Origin: an uncultured Anaeromyxobacter sp.
GTDB taxonomy: Bacteria > Myxococcota > Myxococcia > Myxococcales > Anaeromyxobacteraceae
Reading direction: 5' to 3'
Assembly: GCA_903904005.1 (NCBI GenBank)
Contig: CAIVAR010000045.1
Coordinates: 1 to 35,461, forward strand
DNA length: 35,461 nucleotides
Shown in pieces: positions 11,164 to 33,130 of the stretch (positions are counted from its first letter, which is position 1; each line of letters opens with the position of its first letter). A program made the translations under genes and the position numbers. The notes beneath the pieces are model-generated. The model saw only the letters and a list, made by a program, of their open reading frames with translations. It did not search any database and was not told the DNA's origin.

Positions 11164-12957
11164 ATGGCGAAGGCCAAGGCAGCGAAGGCGAAGAAGAAGA
11201 CGGCCGTGAAGCCCGCACGCAAGCCCGCGAGGAAGGCGCCCGCGCGGAAGCCTCCGGCGAAGAAGGCGGCCGCGCCGAAGAAGGCGGCCGCGCCGGCGAA
11301 GGTCGCCCCGCGGGAGAACCCCGCCGCCGCCTGGCGCTCCGGCCCCTACGCGAAGGCCGTCGCCAAGGCCCCCGAGCGCAAGAAGGCCTTCCGCACCACG
11401 AGCGGCGGCACGATCCAGCCCGTCTACTCCGCGTCCGACGTCGCGCCGGCCCTCGACGCCCGCCTGGGCTTCCCCGGGGACTACCCGTTCACCCGCGGTG
11501 TGCAGCCCACCATGTACCGGGGCCGCTTCTGGACCATGCGCCAGTACGCCGGCTTCGGCACCGCCGAGGAGTCGAACAAGCGCTACCGTTACCTCCTGCA
11601 GTCCGGTCAGACCGGCCTGTCGGTGGCCTTCGACCTCCCCACGCAGATGGGTCGTGACTCCGACCACGTCCGCGCGCTCGGCGAGGTCGGGAAGGTGGGC
11701 GTCGCCATCGACTCGATCGACGACATGTCGACGCTCTTCGACCAGATCCCGCTCGGCAAGGTCTCCACGTCGATGACCATCAACTCGACGGCGTCGATCC
11801 TGCTCGCCCTCTACCAGGCGGTGGCCGAGAAGCAGGGTGTGGCCCCCTCCGAGCTGCAGGGGACCATCCAGAACGACATCCTGAAGGAGTACGCGGCGCG
11901 CGGGACCTACATCTATCCCCCGCGCCCGTCGGTCCGCGTCATCACCGACATCTTCGCCTACACCGCGAAGGTCATGCCCAAGTGGAACCCCATCTCCATC
12001 TCCGGCTACCACATCCGCGAGGCCGGCTCGACCGCGGTGCAGGAGGTGGCCTTCACGCTGGCCGACGGCATCAGCTACGTGGAGGCGGCCAAGGTGGCAG
12101 GCCTCGACGTCGACGCGTTCGCCGGGCGCCTCTCCTTCTTCTTCAACGCCCACAACAACGTGCTCGAGGAGGTGGCCAAGTTCCGCGCCGCCCGGCGGCT
12201 GTGGGCGCGCATCATGAAGGAGCGGTTCAAGGCGAAGGACCCGCGCTCCTGGATGCTCCGGTTCCACACCCAGACGGCGGGCTCCATGCTCACCGCACAG
12301 CAGCCCGAGAACAACGTGGTCCGGGTCACCCTGCAGGCCCTCTCCGCGGTGCTGGGCGGGACCCAGTCGCTCCACACCAACTCGCGCGACGAGGCGCTCG
12401 GCCTCCCCACCGAGTCCTCGGCGCTGCTCGCGCTGCGCACCCAGCAGATCATCGCCAACGAGTCGGGCATCGCCGACGTCATCGATCCGCTCGGCGGCTC
12501 GTGGGCCATCGAGGCCATGACCGACGAGATCGAGGGCAAGGCCTCCGAGTACATCGAGAAGATCGACGCCATGGGCGGCATGGTCGAGGCCATCGACAAG
12601 GGGTTCGTGCAGCGCGAGATCCAGGACGCCGCCTATGCCTGGCAGCGGCAGGTCGAGGAGAACGAGCACGTGGTGGTGGGCGTGAATGCCTACAAGACGG
12701 TCGATCCGCCGGTGACGGTCATGCGGGTCGACCCGGCGCTCGAGGCCGCGCAGGTGGCCCGGTTGAAGGCGTTCCGCGCCGCCCGCGACAGCACCGCGGC
12801 GAAGGCCGCGGTGGACGCGGTACGGGCGGGGGCGAAGGGGACCGACAACCTCATGCCCCTCATCCTCACCGCGGTGAAGGCGCACGCCACGATGGGCGAG
12901 ATCTCCGACGCCATGCGGGACGTCTTCGGCGAGTACCGGGAGACGGTGGTAGTCTAG
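11164..12957 (+). CDS. Methylmalonyl-CoA mutase, catalytic subunit of split type, with Lys-rich N-terminal tail
   Basis: A 597-residue catalytic (alpha) chain of B12-dependent methylmalonyl-CoA mutase, which interconverts methylmalonyl-CoA and succinyl-CoA. The barrel domain starts near residue 75 ([20 protein letters not shown]) and runs to about 555. Residues at the sites that separate methylmalonyl- from isobutyryl-CoA mutases are of methylmalonyl type: Tyr128 in RQYAGFG and Arg246 in [13 protein letters not shown]. There is no C-terminal cobalamin-binding domain, so a separate B12 subunit is needed; neither it, an epimerase nor MeaB is in the window. The first 50 or so residues are a Lys/Ala/Pro-rich histone H1-like tail ([27 protein letters not shown]). 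The tail is supported as translated by GGAGAGGA 5-9 nt before the ATG. It follows the carrier gene after 54 bases. Confidence 0.93.
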
Positions 12958-12964
12958 CCGCAGG

Positions 12965-14563
12965 GTGAGCGGAGACACGAAGACGCCGGGAGCGAGCCAC
13001 GGCCTCGCAGCGCCCGAGGTCACGGCCGCGTCGGCCATCGCCGCCGGCCTCCCGTTCCACGGGGCCCTCCAGGACCGGAGCGCGCTGCACCTCCACTACC
13101 TGGCCGCGGCCACGCAGGCCTCGGGCCGGCTGGCGATCGAGAGCGGCGGGGTCGCCTGGTCGCTCGTCTACCGGCGCGGCGTCGTCGAGCACGTCACCGG
13201 CAGCCAGGAAGCCGACGACCTGGCCGCCTTCCTGGCGGAGCGCGGGCTGATCGCCGCCGAGGCCGCCGCCGACGCCCGGCAGATCGCCGCCGGGCTCGGG
13301 GGCGACGTGCTGGGCGCCCTCATCGACCTGCGCCTCCTCGATCCCGCGGCCCGCTTCCAGGACCTGAAGGAGCACGGGGCGGGCCTGGTCTGGCGGGCGC
13401 TGGCCTGTGACGACGGCTCCTGGAGCTGGGAGCCGGGTGTCGCTCCCCCGCCCTCCGGGTTCCCCCTCGGGAGCCGGTGGGGACTGCTCGCCGACGCCGT
13501 TCGCCGGATCGAGCCATCGGTCGTGCGGGCCAGGCTCGGCGTCCGGGGCGCGCTCTCGGTGGTCCGCGCGGGCGGTCGGGTCGAGGTTGCGGACCTGATG
13601 CTCCATCCCCAGGAGGCCCGGGCCGTCGCCCGCCTCGACGGTTCCCGGAGCGTCGACGAGCTGTGCGCCGCCAGTCCCGCCGACGCCGACGCACTGCGCC
13701 GGGTGGTCCTGCTCCTCGCCGAGACCGAGCTCGTCACCTTCGGCGCGCCGCGCCTCACCGCGCCCCCCCCTCCGGCTCCCCCTCCGGCCGCGAAGCCGAA
13801 GCCTCCCCCGCCGCCACCCGCGCCGGCGAAGCCCGCCCCGCGCCCCGCCGCGAAGCCGGCCACCGTGCAGAAGGGCGGAGCACCGGCCGGGCCCACGCTG
13901 GAGGCGCTCCAGGCCGTCGCGAAGAAGTTCGAGAACGCGGACCACTTCCAGGTCCTGGGCGTGGGGCGCGACGCCGACGCGGCCCGGCTCAAGGCCGCCT
14001 ACTTCCAGCTGGCGAGGACCTACCACCCCGACGCGGCCCGCGAAGGGGACCTGGCGGAGGCCCGGGAGCTTCGCGCCGAGATCTTCGCCCGGGTCGCCTC
14101 GGCCTGGTCCGCGCTCGAGACCGACGCCGGGCGGCTGGCTTACCTCGAGGAACTGAAGGCGGGGGGTGCGGCCCAGGTCGACATCGGGCGCATCTACCAG
14201 GCCGAGCAGGCCTTCGAGAAGGTGGCGGGGCTCGCCGCCGGGAGGGCCTACGCCGATGCACTCGTCCGGGTGAACGAGGCCATCGCGCTCTACGCCGACG
14301 AGCCCGAGTACCACGTCTGGAAGGCGTGGCTCGAGTTCCTCGTCGCGCCCGAGCCGCAGCGGAGGTCGCAGCGGAGCGCCGCGGAGCGGGCCATCGAGGC
14401 GGCCCTCCTGAAGAGCCCGCTGTGCGTTCCCGGATGGCTCTTCCTCGGGCGCATGGCCAAGGTCACCGGTGACCTCGCAGCCGCCGAGCGCGCCTGGAAG
14501 CGCGGACTCGAACAGGTGAAGGACCCCGAGCTGGAGCGCGAGCTCCGGTTCCTCAAGAGGTGA
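12965..14563 (+). CDS. DUF4388-like / J-domain / TPR-like fusion protein
   Basis: A 532-residue soluble protein in four parts. Residues 25-170 resemble the DUF4388 (PATAN-like) module common in delta-proteobacterial signalling proteins (GRLAIESGGVAWSLVYRRGVVEHV). Residues 170-255 form a further alpha/beta region (VADLMLHPQEARAVARLDGSRSV). Residues 262-305 are a Pro/Lys/Ala linker. A J domain follows at about 325-385 with the essential HPD at 354-356, so it should stimulate a DnaK-type ATPase. The C-terminus (400-532) looks like TPR helices (AYADALVRVNEAIALYADEPEYHVWKAWL cut short here). The start is GTG 12965, 7 bases after the mutase stop, with only a weak AGGG before it. The client or signal is unknown; similar proteins are usually called DnaJ-domain or molecular chaperone proteins. 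Confidence 0.8.
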   Translation: MSGDTKTPGASHGLAAPEVTAASAIAAGLPFHGALQDRSALHLHYLAAATQASGRLAIESGGVAWSLVYRRGVVEHVTGSQEADDLAAFLAERGLIAAEAAADARQIAAGLGGDVLGALIDLRLLDPAARFQDLKEHGAGLVWRALACDDGSWSWEPGVAPPPSGFPLGSRWGLLADAVRRIEPSVVRARLGVRGALSVVRAGGRVEVADLMLHPQEARAVARLDGSRSVDELCAASPADADALRRVVLLLAETELVTFGAPRLTAPPPPAPPPAAKPKPPPPPPAPAKPAPRPAAKPATVQKGGAPAGPTLEALQAVAKKFENADHFQVLGVGRDADAARLKAAYFQLARTYHPDAAREGDLAEARELRAEIFARVASAWSALETDAGRLAYLEELKAGGAAQVDIGRIYQAEQAFEKVAGLAAGRAYADALVRVNEAIALYADEPEYHVWKAWLEFLVAPEPQRRSQRSAAERAIEAALLKSPLCVPGWLFLGRMAKVTGDLAAAERAWKRGLEQVKDPELERELRFLKR

Positions 14564-14601: not shown

Positions 14602-15378
14602 ATGCCGTCCTCCCCGCTTCGCCGGCAGCTCCGCGCGGCGGGGCACCACCTCTCCCCGGTGGTCCAGGTCGGGAAGGAGGGGGTGACCGAGGCCGTGCTG
14701 CGGCAGCTCGATCGCGCCCTCCTCGACCACGAGCTCGTCAAGGTGAAGATGGGGACCGAGACGCCCGAGGACCGCTTCGCGTCCGCCGAGGCCCTGGTGG
14801 CCGGCGCGGAGGGGGCGCACCTCGCCCAGATCCTGGGACGGACGCTGCTCGTCTACCGGCGCCACCCGCTGAAGCCGAGATACGAGCCGCTGCCGGTCGT
14901 TCGCGCGGTCCGGTCCCGGACCACCTCCCGGGCGCCGGTCCGCACGGCCCGGTCCGAGGAGCCGCCGCCGCGATCCACCCGGGCGCAGCGCACCGGCCGT
15001 GCCGGGCGCCCCGAGCGCACGGGTAGTCCCGAACGTACCGGGCGCACCGAGCGGACCGGGCGGTTCGGGCGCCCCGTCGGGCGGGAGTGGAGCGGCCGCC
15101 CCGAACGGAGCAGCAGGCCGGACCGCAGCAGCCGCCCGGAACGCCGCGGCGGCCGCCCCGAGAGGACGGGCCGCCCGGAGCGGACCGGCAGGCCGGAACG
15201 GAGCGGCAGGCCGGAGAGGAGCGGCCGGCCGGAGCGGAGCGGCGGCCGCCCGGAGAAGACCGGCCGCCCGGAGAGGACCGGCAGGCCGGAGCGGAGCGGC
15301 GGCCGCCCGGAGAGGACCGGCCGCCCGGAGAGGACCGGCAGGCCCGAGCGCGGCGGCAAGCCACCTCGCCGCCGGTAG
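14602..15378 (+). CDS. yhbY: YhbY/CRS1-type RNA-binding protein with long GRPER-repeat tail
   Basis: 258 residues. The first 95 are a CRM (YhbY) domain (RRQLRAAGHHLSPVVQVGKEG, then LVKVKMG and LGRTLLVYRRHP). E. coli YhbY binds pre-50S particles, and the domain is about 97 residues long. Here it is followed by some 160 residues of low-complexity, Arg/Gly/Pro/Glu-rich chain made largely of hexapeptides G-R-P-E-R-T/S, which must be disordered and strongly basic. The ATG at 14602 is chosen over GTG 14560 because AGGAAG at 14587-14592 is 9 nt upstream and the domain starts directly after it. It lies 38 bases behind the J-domain gene. The role is presumably ribosome assembly, with the tail adding RNA or protein contacts (inference). 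Confidence 0.85.
   Translation: MPSSPLRRQLRAAGHHLSPVVQVGKEGVTEAVLRQLDRALLDHELVKVKMGTETPEDRFASAEALVAGAEGAHLAQILGRTLLVYRRHPLKPRYEPLPVVRAVRSRTTSRAPVRTARSEEPPPRSTRAQRTGRAGRPERTGSPERTGRTERTGRFGRPVGREWSGRPERSSRPDRSSRPERRGGRPERTGRPERTGRPERSGRPERSGRPERSGGRPEKTGRPERTGRPERSGGRPERTGRPERTGRPERGGKPPRRR
15007..15357 (+). repeat. In-frame minisatellite coding (RPER-T/S-G)n
   Basis: About 17 imperfect units of 18 nt (sometimes 21 nt, adding a Gly) lie head to tail in the 3' part of yhbY. They encode RPERTG, RPERSG, RPERSGG, RPEKTG and similar. Units are most alike from about 15160 to 15350; the first few, and a 12-residue stretch near 15061-15096, are degenerate. The lengths keep the frame, so copy number can change without breaking the gene. 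Confidence 0.9.
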
Positions 15379-15389
15379 CGAGGCACCGG

Positions 15390-26448: not shown

Positions 26449-27459
26449 TTAGCTGGCAGCCGGCTCGTCGGCGGGCGGGGCGACGACGACCTCGCCCTTG
26501 CGGAGCACCTCGACGTTCGCGCTGGCCGCCCCGCGGTCGTCGCGGGGGGTGCGCCGCTCACGGCGGGGGCCGCGCCGGTCGCCGCGCTTGTCGCCGCGCT
26601 CGCTGGCGGCGTCCCGCTCGTTCTGCTCGGCCTGCTCGTCGCGGCCGCCGTGCTCGGCGACCCAGGCGCCGTAGCGCGCCTTGCCCTCGATGCAGGCCTC
26701 GGCCACCTTCGAGGTGAAGAGCCGGATGGAGCGGATGGCGTCGTCGTTGCCGGGGATGGTGAAGTCGATGCCCTCGGGGTCGCAGTTGGTGTCGACCACC
26801 GCGACGACCGGGATGCCGAGGCGGTTCGCCTCGTGGATGGCGATGTACTCCTTCTTCGTGTCGATGACGAAGAGGACGCCAGGGAGGCGGGCCAGATCCT
26901 TGATGCCGCCCAGGTTCTTCTCGAGCTTCTCGCGCTCCCGCTCGAGCGAGGCGACCTCCTTCTTGGGGAGGCGGTCGTAGGTGTCGTCGGCCTTCATCTT
27001 CTCGATGGTCTTCAGCCGGTCGATGCCGGTCTTGACGGTCTTGAAGTTGGTGAGCGTGCCGCCCAGCCAGCGGTTGGTCACGTAGAACATCCCGCAGCGG
27101 CTGGCCTCCTCGCGGATGGCATCCTGCGCCTGCTTCTTCGTGCCCACGAAGAGGACGGTGCCGCCCTTCGCCACCACGTCGTTCACGAAGCGGAACGCGC
27201 TGCGGGCGAGGCCGACCGTCTTCTGGAGGTCGATGATGTAGATGCCGTTGCGGGCGCCGAAGATGTACGGCTTCATCTTCGGGTTCCAGCGCTTGGTCTG
27301 GTGGCCGAAGTGGACGCCCGCCTCGAGCAGCTGCTTCATCGTGATGGCCGAGCCGCTCGACTGGAGCGCTCCGGCCATGGAATCGGCGGCGGGGGGGGCG
27401 ACGGCGGCGGGGGGGGCGACGGGCTCGACGGACGGGTCCTGCGGAACCTGCGTTTCCAT
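26449..27459 (-). CDS. rpsB: 30S ribosomal protein S2 with N- and C-terminal extensions
   Basis: 336 residues, about 80-90 longer than usual. The S2 core begins near residue 38 ([22 protein letters not shown]) and ends near 270; motifs [21 protein letters not shown] and [12 protein letters not shown] are typical. Before it stand 37 residues rich in Pro/Ala/Val ([16 protein letters not shown]). The extension is probably translated, since GGAG lies 6 nt before the ATG at 27459, whereas inner Met codons lack such a site. After the core comes a charged, Arg-rich tail ([17 protein letters not shown]) ending [15 protein letters not shown]2 assembles late into the 30S head. The extensions should be disordered; a role in extra rRNA contact is inference. 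Confidence 0.96.
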
Positions 27460-31324: not shown

Positions 31325-33130
31325 ATGGAAGAAATCCAGAACCGAGACCCCCAGCAGCAGCAGGCGCAGGACCCCCGACACGAACAGAGCCACGGCGACG
31401 CGAAGCCCGACGGCGGCGCGACGGGTACCCGTCCGCCCGGGAAGCGCAGGCGCCGGGCCCGCCGTGGACGTGGCCGTGGTGGAGCGCCCGGCGAGACCCG
31501 CGAGGGGGGCGAAAAGCCCGCCATCCGGGAGGTTTCCGCGATCCGGGAGATCTCCGCGGTGCGCGAGATCCCCGCAACTCGCGAGGCCCCGGCCGCGCGC
31601 CAGGCACCGCGCGCCCCCCGGGGCGAACCACGCGGCGAGTCCCGCCCGCCCCGGGAGCACCGGCGCCGGGATCGGCACGAGCCAGAGGGGGAGCGGCGCC
31701 CGCCCGTGCCCCGAGGGCTCACCCTCGACCCGGAGATGCCGAGCCCGGACCGGGAGCAGGAGATCCCGCTCGACCGGCTCGACCGGGACGCGGTGAAGGT
31801 GATCGCGCGGCTCCGCTCCGTGGGGCACAAGGCCTACTTCGTGGGCGGCTGCGTCCGCGACGCGCTGCTCGGCCGCACCCCCAAGGACTTCGACCTCGCC
31901 ACCGACGCCCACCCCGGCGAGGTCCGCGCCATCTTCCGCAACTGCCGGCTCATCGGGCGCCGCTTCCGGCTGGCCCACGTCTTCTTCCGCGACGGGAAGA
32001 TCATCGAGGTCGCCACCTTCCGGCAGAACCCGGTCGACGTGGGCGACGACGTCCCCTCCGACGCCGACCTGCTCATCACCCGCGACAACGTCTTCGGCAC
32101 CGCCGAGGAGGACGCGCGGCGGCGCGACTTCACGGTGAACGGCCTCTTCTACGACCCGTTCCTCGGCGAGGTCATCGACTACGTCGGCGGCCGCGCCGAC
32201 CTCGACGCCCGCCGCATGTCCACCATCGGAGACCCCGAGGTGCGCATGCGGGAGGACCCCGTCCGCGCGCTCCGCGCCATCCGCTTCGCGGCCCGGCTCG
32301 GCTTCACCATCGAGCCCGAGGTCTTCGAGGCGATGCGCCGCCACGCCGGCGAGCTGGCCCGCTGCGCCCCGCCCCGCGTGCTCGAGGAGACCTTCAAGAT
32401 CCTGCGCTGCACGGGATCGGGCCGGGCCTTCGAGCTGCTGCGGTCGGCGGGGCTCCTCCAGGTCACCCTGCCTGCCCTCTCCCAGGCGCTCGACGCCGGG
32501 GGCATCGAGGCGCGGACCCGCTTCCAGGCCCACCTCTCCGCGCTCGACGGGCTGGTGCGCGAGGGGGACGAGGTCTCCGACGCGGTGCTGCTCGGTGCGC
32601 TCCTCGTCCACCTCCGGGCCGGACCGGGCGGCGAGCCGGCCGCCGACCTCCTGCTCGCCGAGCTGGTCCAGACCGCGCGGCTGCCCCGCCGGATGGCCGA
32701 GCGGGCCCGCATGGCCCTGCAGGCGCAGCGCCTCTTCCGCGGTCCTCCGCGCCGGAGGCGACGCGGCGGGCTGGCCGGACAGGCCTACTTCCACGACGCC
32801 CTGCAACTCCTCCGGGTGACGGTGAAGGCCACCGGCGAGGGTGCAGACGCGCTCGCCCGCTGGGAGGACGAGGAGCAGGGCGGCCGCGGGGAGGGCGCCG
32901 AGGAGATCGAGCCCTCGATGCTCGCCGAGGCCGCGTCCGACGACGTCGCCGGTTCCCCCTCCGCGCCGGGCGTGCCCGCCCGGGCCGGGGAAGCTCCCGA
33001 AGGACCGGACGATGCGGGAACGGATGACGGACGCCGCCGCCGACGGGGCGGACGCCGCCGCCGACGCCGCGGAAAGGGAGCCAGCGGAGCGCCGCAGGCC
33101 GGCCCTTCCGCCCCACCTGCGGCGCCGTAG
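31325..33130 (+). CDS. pcnB: Poly(A) polymerase I with Arg-rich N- and C-terminal extensions
   Basis: 601 residues. The nucleotidyltransferase core begins near 150. [10 protein letters not shown] (174-183) and the metal-binding D188/D190 (KDFDLAT) are present, as is [13 protein letters not shown]. The element [11 protein letters not shown] (209-219) matches the signature that separates bacterial poly(A) polymerases from CCA-adding enzymes, so 3' polyadenylation of RNA is the likely role. The C-terminal helical part follows (FETFK-like [19 protein letters not shown], cut short). About 140 residues precede the core, with [13 protein letters not shown] and five hexapeptide repeats; the last 100 residues are acidic then Arg-rich ([16 protein letters not shown]). 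The ATG 31325 has no clear ribosome binding site; an in-frame stop at 31286 rules out a much longer product. Confidence 0.92.
31520..31609 (+). repeat. Five 18-nt repeats in pcnB
   Basis: Residues 66-95 of PcnB read [30 protein letters not shown]: five hexapeptides in a row, decaying toward the 3' side. The period of 18 nt is the same as that of the yhbY minisatellite, though the sequences differ. Confidence 0.75.

Follow-up and report, generated by a model that had tools for sequence, protein, structure and literature searches.

YhbY is a small and widely conserved ribosome assembly factor, and the locus described here raises the question of why such a protein should end in a long tail encoded by a tandem repeat, and whether this repeat matters as protein, as nucleic acid, or hardly at all. 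The DNA analysed (the window) is a whole contig of 35,461 bases from a 4.56-Mb genome in 186 contigs, labelled G000 below. The gene and its parts, all on the plus strand, are as follows.

12965 to 14563, plus strand: gene for a DUF4388/DnaJ-domain protein, upstream of yhbY (Pfam; synteny)
14602 to 15378, plus strand: yhbY-like coding sequence of 258 amino acids, ATG at 14602 (PF01985, E 5.5e-20)
14602 to 14883, plus strand: CRM domain, residues 1-94 (Pfam match to residues 7-86; matches 1ln4)
14884 to 15006, plus strand: linker rich in Arg, Pro, Ala, Thr and Ser, without regular repeat (translation; not conserved in the alignment)
15007 to 15096, plus strand: decayed hexapeptide units RPERTG, SPERTG, RTERTG, RFG ... 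(codon listing; TRF)
15097 to 15339, plus strand: 13 clean 18-nt units RP(E/D)(R/K)(T/S/R)(G/S), with an extra Gly codon in three (TRF, codon reading)
15084 to 15305, plus strand: higher-order period of 93 nt (TRF, 2.4 copies, 84% matches, no indels)
15340 to 15375, plus strand: last partial unit and protein end, RPERGGKPPRRR (alignment)

The start codon gives a protein of 258 residues, the length originally predicted, and family members begin at the same Met in the alignment. The CRS1/YhbY (CRM) domain, PF01985, is found with 71.9 bits, above the Pfam gathering score of 27. Against TIGR00253, the NCBIfam YhbY equivalog, the protein scores 76.2 bits (E 2.2e-21) and narrowly misses the cut-off of 78.5, and I therefore file it as CRM/YhbY-like by domain and fold rather than as a curated YhbY equivalog. 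The domain matches the PDB entries 1ln4, 1jo0 and 1rq8, and its fold is predicted by AF2 with pLDDT block means of 81-92 over residues 21 to 90. Residues G24 and G27 are invariant across 21 aligned sequences, so that the Gly-x-x-Gly loop, which I take to be the conserved RNA loop of the CRM domain, is present. E. coli YhbY (PF01985, TIGR00253, PDB 1ln4) has the domain, the GKEG loop and the single-domain core in common with the window protein; however, the 1ln4 chain counts 104 amino acids without such a tail, whereas the window protein has 164 extra residues, mostly tandem repeats. The accessible part of PMC12457515 assigns YhbY a role in ribosome assembly. Each of the 16 loci compared has a DUF4388/DnaJ-domain gene close to yhbY, in the opposite orientation in L063. 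Within the genus the gene order DnaJ/DUF4388, yhbY, a small minus-strand ORF, a further ORF and phosphofructokinase is kept, and in the synteny comparison DnaJ is still near yhbY beyond the genus.

Is the regularity of the tail a matter of its amino acids, or of the DNA? Tandem Repeats Finder (TRF) reports a period of 18 at 14988-15062 (68% matches) and again at 15150-15339 (10.2 copies, 80% matches). By codon reading, the spacings of the 13 clean units are 18 nt in ten cases and 21 nt in three, the latter owing to the additional Gly codon, and both values had been foreseen in the original prediction. Its count of about 17 units from 15007 onwards is fair when the 13 clean units are taken together with some 4-5 decayed ones, although the first 90 nt (15007 to 15096) are decayed. 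With protein and codon supply held fixed, none of 1000 synonymous-codon shuffles reaches the 57 repeated 18-mers observed (mean 6.5), which shows that the duplication happened in the DNA itself; an exact repeat of 30 nt, the longest present, is reached by 18 of the 1000. At the protein level, the period-6 match is reached by none of 1000 residue shuffles, and 14 RPE[RK] motifs are present in the tail. The 93-nt period at 15084-15305 indicates that blocks of units were duplicated together. With head-to-tail DNA repeats whose unit is a multiple of three, the array is a coding minisatellite, and TRF, codon reading, Pfam and AF2 agree with the initial view of an in-frame minisatellite encoding a basic, predicted disordered tail on a YhbY/CRM protein. 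Collapse or invention of the array by the assembler was considered and is unlikely, as the longest exact repeat is so short; related arrays also stand at the same locus in two other assemblies from the genus.

The differences among the units tell in which frame the array is read. Compared pairwise, the 13 units give a pN/pS of 0.36 in the YhbY frame vs about 0.75 to 8 in the other five frames. A looser count gives frame-0 values of 0.43 in G000, 0.70 in G014, 0.42 in G016 and 0.33 in G004, in each case below both other forward frames; in G001 there is hardly a difference between frames 0 and 2, and this count detects no frame-0 constraint in G002, G006 and G008. The GC content by codon position in the window tail, 0.74/0.83/0.92, is coding-like. 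As the duplication took place at the DNA level and it is solely in the YhbY frame that most unit differences leave the amino acid unchanged, it is almost certain that the tail is translated and under constraint. That the array should instead matter as DNA or RNA, or code on the other strand, with the YhbY frame being incidental, seems to me hardly credible. On the antisense strand there are open frames (177 aa at 14853-15386) that match the tail, but this match arises because the reverse complement of the unit reads to a similar peptide, silent differences accumulate in the YhbY frame alone, and a search for a terminator-like site and for an Rfam match found neither. I also rejected antisense coding as such, since reverse-complement reading explains the minus-strand tail matches and the reverse frames are without comparable constraint.

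The translated tail comprises 164 residues with a net charge of +30, and consists of 30% Arg, 15% Gly and 15% Pro. Its fraction of charged residues (FCR) is 0.44, its net charge per residue (NCPR) +0.18, and its charges are better mixed than in all of 500 shuffles. The description of the tail as RGG-like in the original prediction had to be abandoned in view of this mixing and of a count of 2 RGG, 2 RG, 18 GR and 2 aromatics in 164 residues; the clustered RGG or RG motifs of an RGG/RG-motif protein are not there. The tail is a polyampholyte of Arg and Glu in which positive charges prevail, rather than an RGG domain. In the AF2 model it is structureless, with pLDDT block means of 44-65, mostly 44-54, and neither helix nor strand after residue 86. 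By FCR, NCPR and pLDDT it thus qualifies as a disordered region with mixed charge, of the type known from the Rho protein of Bacteroides (BtRho).

According to the accessible part of PMC13269538, the mixed-charge disordered region of BtRho is needed for RNA-dependent condensation. BtRho, with its KE-rich subdomain, resembles the window protein in being conserved, in acting on RNA and in having a disordered region of mixed charge that is specific to its lineage; in the same part of that source, however, the region has three subdomains and condensation was shown, whereas in the window YhbY the predicted disordered region is a C-terminal Arg/Glu/Pro/Gly hexapeptide array. By analogy, the tail might drive RNA-dependent condensates that gather assembly intermediates. 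I regard this as highly doubtful, because the tail has only two aromatics, two RGG and low charge segregation; for the same reasons, self-association without RNA looks unlikely.

How widespread are such tails? A YhbY match was obtained in 21 of 24 genomes of the family and is absent in G020, G021 and G023. Leaving out G018, in which the gene is incomplete at a contig end, the 20 complete family tails measure 12-164 aa with net charges of 0 to +30, and 19 of them are net positive; the window tail is the longest in the family and has the highest net charge among the 115 tails read. In the order outside the family, where 83 YhbYs were read of 109 matches, 56 end at most 10 residues past the domain; tails of 11-30 residues occur in 12, tails of 31-100 in 14, and a single tail reaches 223 (L077, without a stop in the available sequence, was entered as 25 residues). 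Outside the order, the 12 YhbYs read of 23 matches have tails of 0-20 residues. The tail of 223 residues belongs to L068 (G085), a distant member of the order, and is first acidic and then histone-H1-like (AKKTGATKKASS...).

The GRPER repeat itself is limited to three sister species, G000, G014 and G016. The RPE[RKM] motifs (one genome per species) number 14 in G000, 9 in G016, 6 in G014 and 0 in G015, with the frame kept, and a Pro-Pro-(Pro)-Arg-Arg-Arg terminus is common to the window YhbY, G014 and G016. G015, one of the four members of the genus, has a tail of 26 residues without the repeat. In a tree of the CRM and pseudouridine-synthase domains from 18 genomes, in which deep branches are weak, G000, G014 and G016 form a clade that has G015 as its neighbour (support 98/91). 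The simplest reading of this pattern would be one gain of the repeat on the G000/G014/G016 branch; the repeat may instead have been lost in G015. In the neighbouring sister genus other significant, likewise basic repeats occur at the same place, KRGGAP in G004 and RAPAKGQ-like in G001 and G002. Relatives with no tail had initially been named as the observation that would count against the tail, and this is half what was found: most of the order outside the family stops within 10 residues and G015 lacks the repeat, but all 20 family tails have at least 12 aa. The short-tailed relatives in the order and the repeat-less G015 make the tail a lineage trait, and the roughly 14-fold variation of tail length in the family, together with G015, indicates that the repeat is dispensable.

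At E<=0.001, the tail matches only the YhbY locus (on both strands) in the window's own genome. I also considered a wider GRPER family. The tail-only matches in contigs of other genomes (L033, L036, L038, L041, L043 and L047) are short or doubtful frames, and L033 has stops. Two actinobacterial proteins, L037 and L048, have similar C-terminal halves and Arg-rich N-terminal regions of the GRPER type. Judging by these doubtful frames and N-terminal regions, the GRPER motif elsewhere looks like convergent low complexity and not homology.

Basic tails are also found on the TIGR00093 pseudouridine synthase of the family, presumably a protein of the RluB/RsuA type. They are present in all 18 genomes with a readable end (in the other four of the 22 the end lies beyond the available sequence), with lengths of 50-264 aa and net charges of +7 to +25. 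In L198 (G009) and L199 (G005) these tails reach 199 and 264 aa, with Arg/Asp/Glu repeats after a common ARRHGHGPP motif that are missing or different in other species; the tail in the window genome has 70 aa and is not of the GRPER kind.

Some further proteins of the window have comparable stretches. Ribosomal protein S2 (26449-27459, minus strand) has an Arg-rich C-terminal extension past the Pfam domain, a protein of the poly(A) polymerase/tRNA nucleotidyltransferase type (31325-33130) has Arg-rich low-complexity stretches near both ends, and a methylmalonyl-CoA mutase subunit has an N-terminal extension (11164-11340) of about 60 residues rich in Lys, Arg, Ala and Pro. An L-PSP/RidA-like protein in a sampled contig has a K/R/A/P-rich tail. 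The basic ends on the mutase subunit and the L-PSP/RidA-like protein suggest that genomes of this sort tend in general to extend their proteins with basic low-complexity sequence.

The main rival to a function in RNA contact is near-neutral growth, in which slippage during replication and unequal exchange, in DNA of very high GC content, extend a tolerated C-terminus, the translated tail does little, and selection only purges stops, frameshifts and sticky residues. I consider this possible, if rather unlikely. It fits the fast turnover of tail length and sequence, the duplications at the DNA level, the basic low-complexity extensions on other proteins, metabolic ones included, and the fact that most of the order manages without a tail. 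However, it does not readily account for the excess of silent differences specific to the YhbY frame, for the net positive charge of all family tails except one, or for charge mixing beyond every shuffle. Nor does it sit well with the finding that a C-terminus of 60 residues with >=25% R+K and <10% hydrophobic residues occurs in 0 of 216 gene calls, made by a rough gene caller that did not pick up YhbY.

I lean, with caution, towards the explanation that in-frame duplication of an 18-nt unit gave a CRM protein a disordered tail acting as a mainly electrostatic RNA-contact arm. The 18-nt unit, as well as larger blocks of units, duplicated in tandem and in frame, and in the resulting tail, predicted to be disordered, Arg, Glu, Pro and Gly abound. 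While the CRM domain docks on rRNA, the flexible tail, with two Arg per unit, would add many weak RNA contacts, and these may make YhbY bind more tightly to, or stay longer on, rRNA or pre-ribosomal particles. Overall charge and the disordered state would be maintained with the exact sequence left free, and the repetitive DNA would let the length drift by whole units with the frame intact. In favour of such an arm are the constraint specific to the YhbY frame, the predicted lack of structure, the high net charge, the mostly positive extensions on all readable YhbYs of the family, the clade-bound GRPER repeats with other repeats in the sister genus, and the occurrence of basic tails on a second rRNA-acting protein, the TIGR00093 synthase, throughout the family. 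Against it count the dispensability of the repeat, the lack of frame-0 constraint in G002, G006 and G008, the similar K/R/A/P-rich extensions on proteins without an obvious rRNA role (the mutase subunit and the L-PSP/RidA-like protein), the Glu in each unit, which halves the gain in charge, and the fact that GC-rich DNA alone codes for much Arg. A bolder proposal, that YhbY and the TIGR00093 synthase of the Anaeromyxobacteraceae are both tuned by fast-evolving, independently arising Arg-rich repeat tails, so that evolution could adjust rRNA affinity or condensation during ribosome assembly through minisatellite copy number, is in my opinion doubtful.

Similar themes have been described. In prokaryotes, K/R-rich low-complexity regions mark RNA- or DNA-binding proteins, and they are likewise Arg-rich or C-terminal and found on RNA-binding and ribosomal proteins, as far as the accessible part of PMC6821194 goes; unlike these regions, the window tail is encoded by a minisatellite and has Glu in almost all of its units, and Anaeromyxobacter is not mentioned in that paper. 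In Myxococcus xanthus, of the same phylum, a C-terminal extension of 66 aa on InfC (IF3) is required for development, whereas translation does not depend on it (PMC2129111, accessible part). InfC is likewise a protein of the translation machinery with a lineage-specific C-terminal extension, but it is a different protein, and the same part of that source makes no mention of a GRPER repeat. Among the papers listed in literature searches on YhbY and on disorder, extensions and repeats, none was seen to describe a YhbY with a repeat tail. Searches on RluB C-terminal tails (judged by titles), RGG/DEAD-box proteins and disordered tails of ribosome assembly factors returned off-subject or general papers, and one on RhlE returned none.

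The GRPER-repeat tail is thus a conspicuous variation on something already known, and not a new kind of system. With relatives that carry from 0 to 14 RPE[RKM] motifs on one core, these species offer a natural series in which the contribution of a basic, disordered tail to ribosome assembly can be tested. That unlike repeats have arisen in one and the same position suggests that any selection there may be acts on charge and disorder rather than on sequence.
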